NCBI RefSeq assembly: GCF_002931075.1
Contig: NZ_PSTQ01000018.1
Span: 1-45,172 of the forward strand
Length of the DNA stretch: 45,172 nucleotides
Reading direction: 5' to 3'
Source of the DNA: Pseudoclavibacter sp. AY1F1
GTDB lineage: Bacteria > Actinomycetota > Actinomycetes > Actinomycetales > Microbacteriaceae
Shown: positions 2,051 to 45,172 of the stretch, piece by piece
How positions within the stretch are numbered: the stretch's first letter is position 1
Layout of the letters: the number at the start of each line of letters is the position of its first letter
Notes under the pieces: generated by a model
What the model was told of the DNA's origin: nothing
What the model saw: only the letters and a program-made list of their open reading frames with translations
The model's database searches: none
Translations under genes and position numbers: made by a program

Positions 2051-2074
2051 GACGGTACGCCGAGGCGTGCCGTC
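2051..2074 (-). promoter_or_regulatory. Hairpin next to the FMN aptamer (possible expression platform)
   Basis: GACGGTACGC / GCGTGCCGTC form a 10-bp stem with one mismatch and a four-base loop. In the transcript it follows immediately after the 3' strand of riboswitch helix P1 and touches it at base 2074. Without a U-run it may act as a Rho-linked or translational switch rather than a classical intrinsic terminator. About 80 nt separate it from the ribX start. Confidence 0.45.
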
Positions 2075-2200
2075 ACGTGCGCCTCCCTTCCGGACTTTCA
2101 CCGTCGGTTCCGGAATTTCACCAGATCAGCCGCTCCCTTGCGGGAGCAGGTCGCGGACTATAACCGCCGGCTCGGAATTACACCGACCCCGGAGCACGTG
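2074..2200 (-). promoter_or_regulatory. FMN riboswitch (RFN element)
   Basis: On the minus strand the hallmark RFN segments appear in order: GGGGTCGGTGTAATTCCGAG, then CCGGCGGTTATAGTCCGCG, a variable hairpin (CTGCTCCCGCAAGGGAGC), GGTGAAATTCCGGAACC, and GACGGTGAAAGTCCGG. Helix P1 closes with CACGTGC (2194-2200) against GCACGTG (2074-2080), seven perfect pairs. Such elements normally switch off riboflavin synthesis or uptake genes when FMN is high. It lies directly upstream of the RibX/RibY genes and fixes their likely substrate. The rest of the 2201-2391 stretch shows no gene and no convincing promoter hexamers. Confidence 0.96.
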
Positions 2201-2391
2201 GACTCTGCCGTCAGGTTACGCCAGGTCCCCGGGAAGCGCGACATCGTGACGCTCCGCGACAAGCGAACAGTGCAGCGACCAGCGCAGCGGAAGAGCTCGC
2301 CGCCGTCGCGATCAACTCGGGATGGGTTACACACACGCGGATGGCTTGCAACGCATCCCGAAGTGCGAAGGCCATCCCGAAACGTGGCTGA

Positions 2392-16528: not shown

Positions 16529-16541
16529 GACAAGTCCTTCT

Positions 16542-16583
16542 GAGTCAGTCTTGTCGTGGTGCGGGTACTGCTCCCTCGTCCGC
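16542..16583 (-). promoter_or_regulatory. Class III guanidine riboswitch
   Basis: Minus-strand sequence GCGGACGAGG (16583-16574), then GAGCAGT, ACCCGC, ACCACGACAAG and ACTGACTC (ending 16542). This follows the compact H-type pseudoknot of guanidine-III riboswitches: GCGG pairs with CCGC, and GAGCAGT pairs with ACTGACTC with one bulged A. The invariant ACGAGG and GACAAGA segments are present. The aptamer ends one base before the AGAAGGA Shine-Dalgarno of the first SMR gene, as expected for translational control. Confidence 0.88.
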
Positions 16584-16727
16584 AAGCCCGATTCCGGGGC
16601 TTCAACGTCCAACGTTAGCAACAGCCCGCGCCCTTGGCCAGGGCAGATGAGCCTCAACGTGCACGTGCTGTGCGGATGCACAGGCAAGTCGAACGCACGC
16701 TCGCTCTTCGAAGCCTGCCCTTCGATG

Positions 16728-36390: not shown

Positions 36391-36728
36391 AGAATTGTGG
36401 CCAGACGCCCCTCCAACCCCGACCACCCGCACCAAGCCACAACTCTCGCGACCCGACGCAGGAAACCACACCTCCGCATCCAGAATCGTGGCCAGACGCA
36501 CCTCCAACCTCGACCACCCGCACCAAACCACAACTCTCGCGACCCGACGCAGAAAGCCACACCTCCGCATCCAGAATCGTGGCCAGACGCACCTCCAACC
36601 TCGACCACCCGCACCAAACCACAACTCTCGCGACCCGACGCAGGAAACCACACCTCCGCATCCAGAATCGTGGCCAGACGCGCCTCCAGCCCCGGCCAGC
36701 CGCACCAAGCCACAACTCTCGCGACCCG
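36391..36728. repeat. 91-bp tandem array of decayed 52-bp elements
   Basis: Unit starts (AGAAT[T/C]GTGGCCAGACGC) fall at 36391, 36482, 36573 and 36664, exactly 91 bp apart; the last unit is partial. Each unit holds a 52-bp segment bounded by AATTGTGGC/AATCGTGGC and GCCACAACT/ACCACAACT (36393-36444 in the first unit). These ends resemble those of the 52-bp palindromes at 44575-45118. It lies in the 665-bp gap 36166-36830, which contains no credible gene. Confidence 0.9.
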
Positions 36729-39655: not shown

Positions 39656-42600
39656 ATGATCCACGGAACTGAATTCACCGGCCTGCGCGAGGCGCTCGAC
39701 GACGTCGAGCCGAGCCTCAGGGCAGGGCTCGAGCGTCTGATCGAAGACGTCGACGCTGACGACATCGCGACACGGGAACCGCGCGACATCGTGGGGGCGG
39801 CCGCCACGATGCGGAGGCTCGCGTCCCGGAGGCAAGACAACGAGACCCTCATCGCCGTGTTCACTCCGACGCTCAAGGAAGACGGCTGGAGCTCGCGGCG
39901 CACGATCGTCGACATCTGCACCTCCGACGCCCCATTCCTCGTCGACTCGGTGACAGCGGCCATCGCCAGGCAGGGCATCGCCGTCCACCTCCTCGCGCAT
40001 CCCGTCGTCTCCGTGCGCCGCGACGAGGACGGCGAACTGCTCGAGATGCACACGCACGGCGGCACGCTCGAGTCGTGGATACACCTCGAAGTCGACAGGA
40101 TCGCCACGGAGGAGGCACGCGAAGAGTTGGCCGACCGGCTGCAGCACGTGCTCGCCGACGTCCACTCCGCGGTCGCCGACTGGCGCCCCATGCGTCGCGC
40201 CTGCCTCGACCTGGTCACCGACCTGCGCACGGAGCCGCCGACCAGCGTCACGCAAGAGGAGATCGCCTCCGCTGTCGAGTTCCTGACCTGGCTCGCAGAA
40301 GACAACTTCACCTTCCTCGGCTACCGCGAGTACTCGCTGGAGACGGACGAGGATGGCGAGGAAGTGCTGCGCCCGCTGCCGCACACGGGTCTCGGCATCC
40401 TTCGCAGGCCATCGACCGCCAGCACCCGCCTCACGCCGGAAGCGCAGCGCACGGCACGCGAACCGCGCCTCCTCACCATCACGAAAGCCAACTCTCGCGC
40501 CACCGTCCACCGCGACGTGTACCTCGACTACATCGGCATCCGCAGCTTCGACGAGGACGGCAACGTCACGGGCGAGCTCCGCTTCCTCGGCATGTTCACG
40601 TCGGTCGCCTACGCGGCATCCGTCCTGACCCTGCCGATCGTCGGCGCCAAGGTCCGGGCCGTGCTCGGCGCGTCCGGGCACGCCCCGAACTCGCACTCCG
40701 GCAAGGATCTCCTGCAGACCCTCGAGCAGTACCCACGTGACGAGCTGTTCCAGGACAGCGTCGAGCACCTCCACGCCGTGGCCTCCGAGGTCAGCAGGCT
40801 CCGCGAACGGCGGCGCTACCGCATCTTCCTGCGCCGCGACGAGTTCGGCCGCTTCGCCTCCGCGCTCATCTACCTGCCGCGCGACCGCTACAACACCACG
40901 GTTCGCCTGCGCATCGAGGAACTGCTGCGCACGACGTTCGAGTCCAGCCAGGTCGACCACGCCACGCGCGTCGGCGAATCCCCCCTCGCCCAACTGCACT
41001 TCGTGGTGCGAGCGCCGAAGGGGACCCCGCTTCCCGACGTCTCCGAACAGGAACTCCAGCCACGCATTGAACGCGCGATCCGCGGCTGGGACGAAGAGCT
41101 GGTCGACGGCCTGCACCGCATCTACGACGAAGAGCGGGCCGCAGAGCTCCTCGGCACGTACTCGTCGGCGTTCCCAGAGGGCTACAAGGAGAACATCCCG
41201 CCGGAAGACGCGGTCCATGACATCGCGCTCCTCGAGCAACTGGATGAGACCACGTCCTTCGCCGTGCACCTGTACGCGCCAGAGCTGGACGAGCCGGGCA
41301 AGCGCTACTTCACGTTCGCCTCCCAGGACGTGTACCCCATCACGAGGGTCCTCCCCGCCCTCACCGACCTCGGCGTGGATGTTGTCGACGAGCACCCGTA
41401 CGTCATCACGCTGCCGGACGGCACGAACCTGCACATCTCCGACTTCGGGCTGACCGCGCCGAGCGCGGCGGTCTGGAACGACGCCGAGTGGGGCGCGGAG
41501 CTGGAGTCCGTGTTCACCGCCGTCTGGTCGGGTGAGTCGGAGACCGACCGGCTGAACTCGCTGGTCCTGCTCGGGGGCCTCCGCTGGCGCCAGATCGTGA
41601 TCCTGCGCGCCATCAGCATGTACCAGCGCCAGATCGGCGCGACGTTCTCGGTCGAGTACATCGAGCAGGCGCTCATCGAGAACCCGGTGATCGCGGCCGA
41701 CATCGTGCGGCTCTTCGAGACGAAGTTCGACCCCGCGCTGAACGGCGACCGCGGGGCTGAGCTCGCGACGCTGACCGAGGGCCTCCTCGCGGCGCTCGAC
41801 GACGTCGCGAGCCTCGACCACGACCGCATCCTGCGCTCCATGATCGGCATCGTCGACGCGACGTGGCGCACGAACTTCTACCAGGTGGATGCGGACGGCA
41901 AGCCCAAGCACTGGGTCTCCATGAAGCTCGACTGCACACGCGTGCCCGGGCTCCCGAAGCCGCATCCGATGGCCGAGATCTGGGTCTACTCGCCTGAGGT
42001 CGAGGGCGTGCACCTGCGCTTCGGCCGTGTCGCCCGCGGCGGGCTTCGCTGGAGCGACCGCCGCGAGGACTTCCGCACCGAGGTGCTCGGGCTCGTGAAG
42101 GCGCAGATGGTGAAGAACGCCGTCATCGTGCCAACCGGGTCCAAGGGCGGGTTCTTCGCGAAGCAGCTGCCCTCCCCGAGCGACCGGGGCGCGTGGTTCG
42201 AGGCCGGCAAGTCCGCCTACCGCACCTTCATCCGCGGGCTCCTCGACATCACCGACAACCGGGTCGGCACCGACATCGTGCCGCCGAGAGACGTGGTGCG
42301 CCACGACGGCGACGACCCGTACCTCGTGGTCGCCGCCGACAAGGGCACGGCTTCGTTCTCGGACATCGCCAATGGCATCTCGGAGAGCTACGACTTCTGG
42401 CTCGCGGATGCGTTCGCGTCCGGCGGTTCGGCCGGCTACGACCACAAGGGCATGGGCATCACTGCGCGCGGCGCGTGGGAGTCGGTCAAGCGCCACTTCC
42501 GCGAGCTGGGCCACGACACGCAGACGCAGGACTTCACGGTCGTCGGCGTCGGCGACATGTCCGGCGACGTGTTCGGCAACGGCATGCTGCGCTCTGAGCA

Positions 42601-44434
42601 CATCCGTCTCGTCGCGGCGTTCGACCACCGCCACGTGTTCGTCGACCCGAACCCGGATGCGGCGGCGACGTTCGCCGAGCGTCAGCGGCTCTTCGACCTG
42701 CCCGGCTCCTCATGGGACGACTTCGACCGCACCGTCATGTCGGAAGGCGGCGGGGTCTTCCCGCTCTCGCAGAAGTCCATCCCCCTCACGCCCCAGATGC
42801 GGGAGGCGCTTGGCCTCGACGCCGACGTGCAGCGCGTCACCCCGCTCGAGCTGAAGAAAGCGGTGCTGCTGGCCCCCGTCGATCTGCTCTGGAACGGCGC
42901 CATCGGCACCTACATCAAGGCCAGCGACGAGACGAACGCGGAGATCGGCGACCGCGGCAACGACGCGATCCGCGTCGACGGTCGCGAGCTTCGGCTCCGC
43001 GTCGTCGGCGAAGGCGGCAACCTCGGCGTGAGCCAGCGCGGCCGCATCGAGGCGGCGCTGTCGGGCGTGAGCCTGAACACCGACGCCATCGACAACTCGG
43101 CGGGCGTCGGCACCTCCGACCGCGAGGTGAACATCAAGATCCTCCTCGGCGCCGTCGAGCGCGACGGGCGCCTCGACCGCGAGGCGCGCAACGAAGTGCT
43201 GCGTGCGATGACGGATGAGGTCGCAGCCCAGGTGCTGCGCGACAACTACGAGCAGAACGTGCTCCTCGGCAACTCGCGCTCGAACGCCGCTCAGATGCTC
43301 CCTTCCCACAAGCGCCTCATCACGTGGCTGGAGGAGCGCGACGAGCTCGACCGGGAGCTCGAGTTCCTGCCGTCGAACGCCGAGATCAAACGCCGCGTCG
43401 AGGACGGACGAGGGCTCACAAGGCCCGAGTTCTCCGTCCTGGTCGCCTACGCCAAGCTGGCGCTCAAGAGCGACCTCGCCGCCACCGAGCTCGCCGACGA
43501 TCCCTGGTTCGCGAACACCCTGGCCGAGTACTTCCCGGCCGAGGTCCGCGAGCAGTACGGGCCCGACCTGCACGCGCATCCGCTGCGACAGGAGATCGTC
43601 GTCAACGCCGTCGTGAACTCCATGGTCAACCGAGGCGGCATCACGTTCGCCTACCGGGCGGCCGACGAGACGGGCGCAACCAGCGAGGAGATCGCGCGCG
43701 CCTATGTCGCAGCCCGCGAGATCTTCGACCTGCGCGGGTTCGTCATCGAGATCGAGGCGACCGACAACGTCGTCTCGACCTCCACGCAGACTGAGCTGTA
43801 CCTCGGCTTCCGTCGACTCCTCGACCGAGCCACGCGCTGGTTCGTGCAGCACCGGCCCGACCGCATCGACATCGGCGAGGAGATCACCCGCTTCACGGGC
43901 CCCGTCGCCCAGTTCGCGTCGCGGATCGGTGAGCTGCAGCAGGGTGTGGAGCGCGAGCGGTTCGCGGAGCGCGTGAGCGAGTTCGAGGCGGCGGGCGTGC
44001 CGCACGCCCTCGCACTGCGCGGCGCCGGCCTGCTTGAGCTCATGCCGCTGCTCGACATCATCGAGCGCGCCGGGAACGAGGGATGGGACCTCGAGGAGTT
44101 CGCGGGCGTCTACTACTCACTGTCGGCCCGCGTCAGCTTCGATGACATGCTCACGCGCGTCACGGCGCTGCCGCAGGACGACCGCTGGGGGTCGATGGCA
44201 CGCGCCGCGATGCGCGACGACCTGTACGCCGTCATGGTCGAGCTCGCCGCATCCGTCATTTCGCAGACCGACGACGCCGAGCCGGACGAGCGCGTGGACG
44301 CCTGGATCGGCAGCCTCGGCCTGACCGCCACCCGAGCCCTCAGCGAAGCAGCGGATGCGGTGCACGCGGGCGACGACACGGGCCTCGCCACACTGTCCGT
44401 CGCGCTGCGCCGCCTGCGCTCGCTCGTGCGCTGA
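39656..44434 (+). CDS. NAD-specific glutamate dehydrogenase, large (180-kDa) type
   Basis: Interconverts glutamate and 2-oxoglutarate plus ammonium with NAD, mainly in the degradative direction. 1592 residues, the normal size of the large GDH class. The N-terminal half holds ACT-like regulatory domains (KEDGWSSRRTIVDICTSDAP). The catalytic core has WVYSPEVEGVHLRFGRVARG, GLRWSDRREDFRTEVLGLV and PTGSKGGFFAK with the substrate Lys near residue 830. Later come VVGVGDMSGDVFGNGMLRS with the dinucleotide fold and VVGEGGNLGVSQRGRIEAAL. ATG 39656 has a GGGGTAGGG leader. The 5' UTR contains a hairpin. No frameshift is seen across the gene. Confidence 0.97.
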   Translation: MIHGTEFTGLREALDDVEPSLRAGLERLIEDVDADDIATREPRDIVGAAATMRRLASRRQDNETLIAVFTPTLKEDGWSSRRTIVDICTSDAPFLVDSVTAAIARQGIAVHLLAHPVVSVRRDEDGELLEMHTHGGTLESWIHLEVDRIATEEAREELADRLQHVLADVHSAVADWRPMRRACLDLVTDLRTEPPTSVTQEEIASAVEFLTWLAEDNFTFLGYREYSLETDEDGEEVLRPLPHTGLGILRRPSTASTRLTPEAQRTAREPRLLTITKANSRATVHRDVYLDYIGIRSFDEDGNVTGELRFLGMFTSVAYAASVLTLPIVGAKVRAVLGASGHAPNSHSGKDLLQTLEQYPRDELFQDSVEHLHAVASEVSRLRERRRYRIFLRRDEFGRFASALIYLPRDRYNTTVRLRIEELLRTTFESSQVDHATRVGESPLAQLHFVVRAPKGTPLPDVSEQELQPRIERAIRGWDEELVDGLHRIYDEERAAELLGTYSSAFPEGYKENIPPEDAVHDIALLEQLDETTSFAVHLYAPELDEPGKRYFTFASQDVYPITRVLPALTDLGVDVVDEHPYVITLPDGTNLHISDFGLTAPSAAVWNDAEWGAELESVFTAVWSGESETDRLNSLVLLGGLRWRQIVILRAISMYQRQIGATFSVEYIEQALIENPVIAADIVRLFETKFDPALNGDRGAELATLTEGLLAALDDVASLDHDRILRSMIGIVDATWRTNFYQVDADGKPKHWVSMKLDCTRVPGLPKPHPMAEIWVYSPEVEGVHLRFGRVARGGLRWSDRREDFRTEVLGLVKAQMVKNAVIVPTGSKGGFFAKQLPSPSDRGAWFEAGKSAYRTFIRGLLDITDNRVGTDIVPPRDVVRHDGDDPYLVVAADKGTASFSDIANGISESYDFWLADAFASGGSAGYDHKGMGITARGAWESVKRHFRELGHDTQTQDFTVVGVGDMSGDVFGNGMLRSEHIRLVAAFDHRHVFVDPNPDAAATFAERQRLFDLPGSSWDDFDRTVMSEGGGVFPLSQKSIPLTPQMREALGLDADVQRVTPLELKKAVLLAPVDLLWNGAIGTYIKASDETNAEIGDRGNDAIRVDGRELRLRVVGEGGNLGVSQRGRIEAALSGVSLNTDAIDNSAGVGTSDREVNIKILLGAVERDGRLDREARNEVLRAMTDEVAAQVLRDNYEQNVLLGNSRSNAAQMLPSHKRLITWLEERDELDRELEFLPSNAEIKRRVEDGRGLTRPEFSVLVAYAKLALKSDLAATELADDPWFANTLAEYFPAEVREQYGPDLHAHPLRQEIVVNAVVNSMVNRGGITFAYRAADETGATSEEIARAYVAAREIFDLRGFVIEIEATDNVVSTSTQTELYLGFRRLLDRATRWFVQHRPDRIDIGEEITRFTGPVAQFASRIGELQQGVERERFAERVSEFEAAGVPHALALRGAGLLELMPLLDIIERAGNEGWDLEEFAGVYYSLSARVSFDDMLTRVTALPQDDRWGSMARAAMRDDLYAVMVELAASVISQTDDAEPDERVDAWIGSLGLTATRALSEAADAVHAGDDTGLATLSVALRRLRSLVR

Positions 44435-44458
44435 GCCCGGGGCGGGGCAGACGGGGCA

Positions 44459-44489
44459 GGCGGGGCAGGCGCATCCGCCCTGCCTCGCC
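44459..44489 (+). terminator. Hairpin after NAD-GDH
   Basis: GGCGGGGCAGG (44459-44469) pairs with CCTGCCTCGCC (44479-44489), eleven pairs including one G-U, loop CGCATCCGC. It is 25 bp past the NAD-GDH stop. Confidence 0.55.
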
Positions 44490-44574
44490 CGCCGCGCGCT
44501 CGCCCGCCGCGCCCGCCGCGCGCCGCGCGCCGCGCGCCCGCGTCCTGCCCGCCTGCCCGCCTGCCCGCCTGGAA

Positions 44575-45118
44575 AGTTGTGGCCTGTTGCTCTTACCGAC
44601 GCTCGCAAGAGCAACAAGCCACAACTCTGCGCGCGAATCCGGCCCCGGCGCATCCACCTTCGGAGCGTCCCCGAAGCCCGCGGTGCGTCCCTGATCCCTC
44701 GGAGCGTCCCCGATCCTGCGGAGCGTCCCCGATCCTGCGGAAGGGGCCGAGAGTTGTGGCCTTTTGCTCTTGCCGACGCTCGCAAGAGCACCAAGCCACA
44801 ACTCTGCGCGCGAATCCGGCCCCGGCGCATCCACCTTCGGACGACCCCGAAGCCCGCGGAGCGTCCCTGCTCCTTCGGAGCGTCCCCGATCCTTCGGAGC
44901 CGGCCCGATACTGCGGAACGGGCCGAGAGTTGTGGCCTTTTGCTCTTGCCGACGCTCGCAAGAGCAACAAGCCACAACTCTGCGCGCGGATGCGGTCCCC
45001 CGCGCATCTGCCTTTGGATCACCTCGCCGCCATCGCAGCGGCTCTCGGCCTGCGAAACGGACTGAGAGTTGTGGCTTGTTGTCCTTCTCGACCATCGCGA
45101 GGACAACTTGCCACAACT
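44575..45118. repeat. Four 52-bp palindromic elements in a larger repeat array
   Basis: Copies at 44575-44626, 44752-44803, 44928-44979 and 45067-45118, each exactly 52 bp, beginning AGTTGTGGC and ending GCCACAACT. Copies 1-3 have TTGCTCTT against AAGAGCAA in the arms, while copy 4 has TTGTCCT against AGGACAA, so the stem is kept by paired changes. Copies 1-3 sit in a 176-177-bp tandem unit that includes GCGCGCGAATCCGGCCCCGG and runs of GGAGCGTCCCCGATCC. The 738-bp stretch 44435-45172 contains no credible gene. Confidence 0.92.
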
Positions 45119-45172
45119 CTGCGTGCCCTAATCCGCGTGCCCTTGCGGAGCGGGGGCGGGGCAGGGCAGGGC

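Follow-up and report, generated by a model that had tools for sequence, protein, structure and literature searches.

The window analysed here, a stretch of 45,172 nucleotides from Pseudoclavibacter sp. AY1F1, closes on an array of four 52-bp palindromes belonging to a dispersed family (family A) that also flanks, elsewhere in the same genome, the gene of a predicted Vsr-like nuclease. The array is probably best explained as tandem copies of a dispersed, non-autonomous palindrome in a REPIN-RAYT-like pairing, where the nuclease would stand in for the transposase and be responsible for cutting and spreading. Matching of a nuclease clade to the palindrome that borders it is seen for several clades and in two bacterial orders. 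The palindromes have a fixed length, are dispersed (at least four families) and covary partially in their stems; one copy lies within a gene, and local duplication and vertical inheritance are both apparent.

The palindromes of the array (Table 1) are exactly 52 bp each, as the sequence-only reading of this DNA had stated: all four match exactly the box pattern AGTTGTGGC-N20..50-GCCACAACT, and none of 100 dinucleotide-shuffled windows contains such a match. The arms described in that reading are correct for copies 1 and 3 (TTGCTCT/AGAGCAA) and for copy 4 (TTGTCCT/AGGACAA), but not for copy 2 (TTGCTCT/AGAGCAC), in which one unpaired change had been overlooked. Folded with 5-6 flanking bases, every hairpin beats 200/200 of its own shuffles (z -6.3 to -7.8). 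Copy starts are spaced 177 and 176 bp apart with spacers that are alike, and the contig ends 54 bases past the last palindrome. A second, degenerate array, also of four copies, spans 36393-36717. At gathering score, Rfam searches of the window and eight loci gave no match to the element and one tRNA in the eight loci. The window also holds two Rfam riboswitches, FMN (2074-2200, minus strand) and guanidine-III (16539-16605, minus strand).

Table 1. Palindromic elements of the window and their gene context (PWM, weight-matrix score)
Feature	Position	Strand	Evidence
Family-A copy 1 (52 bp)	44575..44626		Exact box match; PWM 66.6
Family-A copy 2, one unpaired change in 3' arm	44752..44803		Exact box match; PWM 67.9
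Family-A copy 3	44928..44979		Exact box match; PWM 67.4
Family-A copy 4, paired changes in both arms	45067..45118		Exact box match; PWM 53.6
NAD-glutamate dehydrogenase gene, 3' end precedes array (context, outside the system)	39656..44434	+	PF05088, E 3.2e-255
Second, degenerate family-A array, copy a	36393..36444		91-bp tandem period; PWM 52.4
Second array, copy b	36484..36535		PWM 38.4
Second array, copy c	36575..36626		PWM 38.4
Second array, copy d	36666..36717		PWM 49.2
Family-B palindrome, TCGGGATGG boxes, 66 bp	2316..2381		Pattern scan; family B borders paralogous nuclease L218

The family-A consensus reads CAR AGTTGTGGC nnn RTGCnGTT n12 AACnGCAY nnn GCCACAACT YTG, with a core fixed at 52 bp and a middle of about 12 nt. 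In the genome of the window (G000), all 12 exact box pairs are 52 bp long although 38-68 bp were permitted; 34 sites match a 26-base consensus with at most three mismatches, against 0 for a reversed-pattern control; and, among the genome stretches scored, 23 places hold at least 46 copies between them. Scoring relied on a weight matrix built on 88 copies, from G000 and from four further species, with each identical context counted once; over 800 kb, real copies reach at least 39.5 and shuffled and reversed controls at most -15, and the lowest-scoring copies of the window stand at 38.4. Samples of 400 kb from its own genomes hold 10 and 8 copies. Only two AGTTGTGGC boxes lie outside full elements in 800 kb, compared with four and eight for the reversed control 9-mer, and this box scan revealed no unpaired ends or REP-like singlets beyond chance.

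Five of ten Pseudoclavibacter genomes, G000 included, carry family A (34, 25, 17, 16 and 9 pattern matches). Among 299 genomes sampled across Microbacteriaceae, three match, all of them Pseudoclavibacter (3/6 of the genus in the sample); copies in the genome and in relatives, which the sequence-only reading had proposed to look for, exist within the genus, and 0/293 sampled genomes of other genera match. The 177- and 176-bp spacing and the similar spacers are what a purely local tandem duplication would produce. This explanation has practically no probability left: the second window array and the 23 occupied genome places make family A more than a local duplication, copies occur in four further species, and the suggestion of a dispersed REP/MITE-like family is confirmed. 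A phage or plasmid origin was rejected, since at E<=1 a 72-base element query finds nothing among phages or plasmids, and the exact box pattern is absent from the viral contig collection.

Family A is constrained most strongly in its two boxes and its exact length, and less so in the pairing of its stem. Identity between orthologous copies is 97% in the outer boxes, 72% in the inner part and 65% in the flanks, for a random baseline of 60%; whole elements score 0.81 versus 0.65 for flanks and 0.60 at random. When one copy per gap group is taken (n = 22), 52.5% of the cells in ten variable stem columns are paired versus 36.6% after shuffling, a level that 0/300 shuffles reached in each of 20 draws. 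In a test on all 78 copies, which is inflated by kinship among them, none of 500 shuffles and no slid register attains the observed paired-cell share, both-sides-changed cells or covariation score; the double-change pair count is reached by 61/500 shuffles and the pair-type count by 15/500. Between orthologous copies in 50 species pairs, single changes break a pair or leave it broken in 190 cases and keep it as G-U in 60. Double changes number 84 versus 46.7 expected under independence of both sides, yet pairing is kept in 38 and not kept in 46. The earlier idea of a stem maintained by paired changes is supported statistically, but only in part: pairing exceeds that of shuffles, but many changes break pairs.

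Counted by distinct gap, the 56 family-A sites of five species comprise 33 convergent, 13 tandem, 2 divergent, 4 in-gene and 4 edge sites (14, 6, 1, 1 and 1 in G000 alone), with the five species pooled and classes assigned by an own codon-model gene caller that missed the nuclease gene in L021, for which reason the G000 nuclease gap is entered as convergent. The convergent share of classified intergenic gaps is 33/48, versus 44/230 in a 400-kb background. Six gaps on G000 contig C23 can be compared with the P. helvolus stretch, and five of the six hold palindromes in that species too, in locally varying numbers; for a seventh gap there is no equivalent. A five-species gap comparison agrees with inheritance at orthologous gaps. 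Because orthologous gaps are mostly occupied and copy number varies, recent history consists of inheritance, local duplication and loss; no clear recent insertion was found among the orthologous gaps compared, which counts against the preferred explanation. The four in-gene sites always lie in the same gene, a heparinase II/III-like gene of four species (L020 501-2930, L071, L056, L043), with a PF07940 match in the three species scanned. There the element sits in frame and encodes a TELWPS...NSTSPQLS-like linker, two of these species having it doubled; 13/13 orthologues from other genera lack the insert.

The partner gene lies outside the window (G000:C27:179057-180154), encodes 366 amino acids and occurs once per genome in its clade. 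Two groups of family-A elements flank it in L021; in the layout of L194 (G000), a palindrome at 1409 precedes the gene (1498-2598) and two others follow at 2712 and 2863. Flanks of family A on both sides are likewise present at L195 (terrae), L196 (helvolus) and L205/L210 (RFBB5); the RFBB5 gene is broken, being split over two frames. The hairpin-flanked gene sought in the sequence-only reading exists, but what it encodes is a predicted Vsr-like nuclease and not a Y1 transposase. The four family-A nuclease loci represent one orthologous locus, with outer genes 86-92% and nucleases 69-72% identical, and do not count as independent tests. An orthologue occurs in 4/5 element-bearing versus 0/5 element-free Pseudoclavibacter genomes. 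The exception is AY1H1 (G005), whose 25 family-A copies coexist with no close nuclease (best identity 46%), which counts against the pairing. Searched against the genus, the 366-aa protein has 40 matches in 8/10 genomes.

The product is a predicted Vsr-like PD-(D/E)XK nuclease, kin to PF18741/DUF559, as judged from profiles and a structural model. In a profile search of 19 nuclease members at E<=0.1, PF18741 is found in 17 and DUF559 in 11; the G000 nuclease itself has no Pfam match. Its AlphaFold model (pLDDT 80.8) resembles, by Foldseek, the catalytic domain of I-Bth0305I (probability 0.99, TM 0.73 over the target) and Vsr (probability 0.97, TM 0.58); no PDB match reaches E<=0.001, and by E-value the first seven places go to other proteins, most of them mitoribosomal. 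Comparison with PDB sequences yields two weak unrelated matches only (E 0.82 and 0.84), and there is a weak similarity to AbiEi (E 0.021). The namesake of PF18741, MTES_1575, is described as a Vsr-family REase domain (PMC3710099).

Paralogous nucleases are bordered by other palindromes. Family B is common to both flanks of L217, L218 and L219; in G002, the GGTTGTTGCTACC family (A') borders L199 and the GTTCCGGG family (B') borders L207; further hairpins are shared from flank to flank at L197, L198, L201, L208 and L214. A flank-to-flank score of at least 14 is attained by 15/25 nuclease genes (from 30 loci, less five that are broken, duplicates or located at a contig end) versus 4/79 stand-alone controls (Mann-Whitney p 7e-9) and 11/252 size-matched genes, the control genes coming from G000:C23 and G004:C3 only. 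Ten of the 25 fall below the threshold, two of which (L196 and L200) still have like hairpins on both sides. Several of these hairpins are dispersed in 400-kb samples of their own genomes: that of L199 occupies 10 places, that of L207 eight, and family B six in G004 (L217) and two to three in G000 (L218). The hairpins of L204, L212 and L213, by contrast, occupy only 1, 2 and 1 places in such samples, the query hairpin being included in the counts for L212 and L213; for L202 no hairpin was scored. The G002 hairpins of L199 and L207 are absent from the G000 and G004 samples. Four plasmid records contain a nuclease match; the three examined, all from Arthrobacter, share flank segments with scores of 23, 22 and 30, measured from open-frame ends and having no control of their own.

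Additional palindromes were encountered. Family B (TCGGGATGG boxes, 65-66 bp) is also found at G000:C23 129475, 328215 and 390322; a third family, ATCRCTGCCAG, of 62 bp, at G000:C23 210859 and 217015 and at G004:C3 100945; and 72-bp palindromes CCAACTTCC... of equal span at G004:C3 306497, 314287, 324694 and 325582. G002 carries nine near-identical GCCGGGTTGTTGCTACC hairpins in 400 kb (L175, L179, L182, L183, L187, L189, L191), some with A and T tracts at their two ends in the manner of two-way terminators; the same hairpin borders L199.

Beyond the family, a scan for exact AGTTGTGGC-N34-GCCACAACT in a collection of 84,980 species genomes returned 59 stretches, about four being expected by chance according to an own estimate: 29 in Pseudoclavibacter, 25 in Micromonospora, two in Nocardia and single stretches in Knoellia, Alishewanella and a planctomycete. 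Among Micromonosporaceae, 16/121 genomes contain the exact pattern, with up to 119 copies per genome, and the outer flanks of their AGTTGTGG elements are GATCWTGS, unlike those of Pseudoclavibacter. Such AGTTGTGG palindromes with GATCWTGS flanks were observed at L036-L039 and other Micromonospora loci, and in genomes G749, G780 and G791. The nuclease profile matches in 10/10 Micromonosporaceae genomes tried. Among 30 nuclease loci read, 7/9 members of one nuclease clade (support 100/99) have a full AGTTGTGG element no more than 500 nt away, versus 0/21 other loci, three of which are too partial for the tree (Fisher p 1.8e-5). Four of the seven are bordered by full elements on each side, one by a full and a half element, and two, by the exact pattern, on one side; the remaining clade members, L249 and L252, have variant hairpins common to both flanks, and L110 of G400 is a further nuclease with elements on both sides. 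Overall, flanks are shared at 14/29 nuclease loci (one of the 30 being too short) versus 4/40 control genes from named Micromonospora loci. The shared AGTTGTGG box is no proof of common descent, because the tree does not join the Pseudoclavibacter-A and the Micromonosporaceae AGTTGTGG nucleases as sister clades.

Several other explanations of the palindromes have been considered. The sequence-only reading had raised a RAYT-like transposase, beside a host nuclease, as a possible partner, and the elements are built like REPINs, with conserved inverted ends, a spacer constrained in length and pairing, compensation and tandem clusters, as these are described in PMC3116915; the GTGG of the box also resembles the GT(A/G)G head of REPs reported in PMC2817692. 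Movement by a Y1 RAYT transposase is nevertheless contradicted by the absence of any Y1_Tnp (PF01797) match in 10/10 Pseudoclavibacter genomes, one of which is 83% complete, in a search whose control was positive in 5/14 known genomes, E. coli included. The domain likewise has no match in 11/13 Micromonosporaceae genomes with a related element, including the one with 119 palindrome copies, or in 6/6 others. The two remaining element-bearing genomes (G791 and G306) have four Y1 loci, the G306 pair being cut by contig ends, and neither AGTTGTGG nor CCACAACT occurs at any of the four. With REP singlets missing and boxes outside full elements at chance level, REP/REPIN elements moved by a RAYT are an exceedingly improbable explanation. 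A role as bidirectional 3'-end signals, i.e. terminators or RNA-stabilising hairpins between convergent genes, with the nuclease-side copies merely insulating a stand-alone gene, would fit the convergent excess and the better conservation of elements than flanks given above, the G-U pairs (66) versus A-C mismatches (21) in tandem contexts, and the dispersed hairpin of the element-free G002, some copies of which have A and T tracts at their ends. However, no T tract follows family A, the 3' arm being succeeded by CTG/TTG, and a T-tract scan of 44300-45172 gave two short sites that overlap copy 3 and its flank (0.5 expected), neither being the 52-bp hairpin. The G-U excess comes mostly from two gaps (gap groups: five for, one against, three ties) and is reversed for in-gene copies (2 versus 16); convergent copies give 74 versus 87. 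Terminators require neither a fixed 52-bp length nor shared 9-mers, which weighs against such a role, as do the copies within a coding gene in four species and the different palindromes beside different nuclease clades, which it leaves unaccounted for. It is considered unlikely.

Distinctly unlikely, too, is the possibility that the palindromes are double-stranded sites for the DNA-binding half of the nuclease, serving as operators or for self-recognition in a toxin- or defence-like system and spreading passively. Symmetrical boxes about one helical turn apart, fixed length, hairpins both 5' and 3' of the nuclease gene and the weak AbiEi similarity are in keeping with it, but non-consensus stem positions covary, which a plain dimer site would not need, and a copy within a coding gene and tens of dispersed copies distant from the nuclease are hard to reconcile with this function. 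In the preferred REPIN-RAYT-like pairing, the nuclease would recognise its own palindrome where convergent transcription or replication exposes it, perhaps as an extruded cruciform or as a fold of single-stranded DNA. Cutting there may then be followed by repair, through which the hairpin would reach new places or be duplicated locally, and after loss of the nuclease the palindromes would persist as fossils. A broader proposal, that actinomycetes carry widespread selfish or domesticated pairs in which each Vsr-like clade owns, spreads by cut-and-repair and is flanked by one palindrome family, is put forward tentatively, with somewhat less than even confidence.

The nuclease-palindrome pair addresses an open problem, namely how short dispersed palindromes spread without RAYTs. 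The nuclease clades with their own palindromes in Pseudoclavibacter and Micromonosporaceae constitute testable enzyme-substrate pairs, and the pairing points to a possible function of stand-alone MTES_1575/DUF559 genes. Should the nuclease truly spread the hairpin, it would be a second, chemically unrelated solution to the presumed task of RAYTs, and the widespread class, if real, would be a transposase-free counterpart of REPIN-RAYT systems. No report of such a pairing was found in searches of a library of open-access papers.

Among known systems, REPIN-RAYT is similar in several respects: its palindromes are dispersed, have conserved ends and a partly compensated spacer, and form tandem clusters (PMC2817692 and PMC3116915); an enzyme gene present in single copy lies between palindromes of its own (here L194, L195, L196 and L205); and the box resembles the GT(A/G)G head, as already mentioned. 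The system differs in that family A flanks a Vsr-like nuclease, no Y1 domain being found in ten genomes of the genus, and in that the family-A unit is the whole 52-bp palindrome, without separate singlets. Rickettsia palindromic elements are likewise palindromic repeats able to sit in frame within coding genes, but according to PMC10969869 they are about 150 bp long and common in genes, whereas family A measures 52 bp, was found in one gene and has a putative partner nuclease. On the protein side, Vsr, the EDxHD homing endonucleases (I-Bth0305I) and the MTES_1575 REase family match the partner protein in its predicted fold and family; a dispersed palindrome partner is not among the features described for the MTES_1575 family in the available part of PMC3710099. 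In architecture, the palindromes resemble MITEs, which are also short, non-autonomous, inverted-repeat elements.
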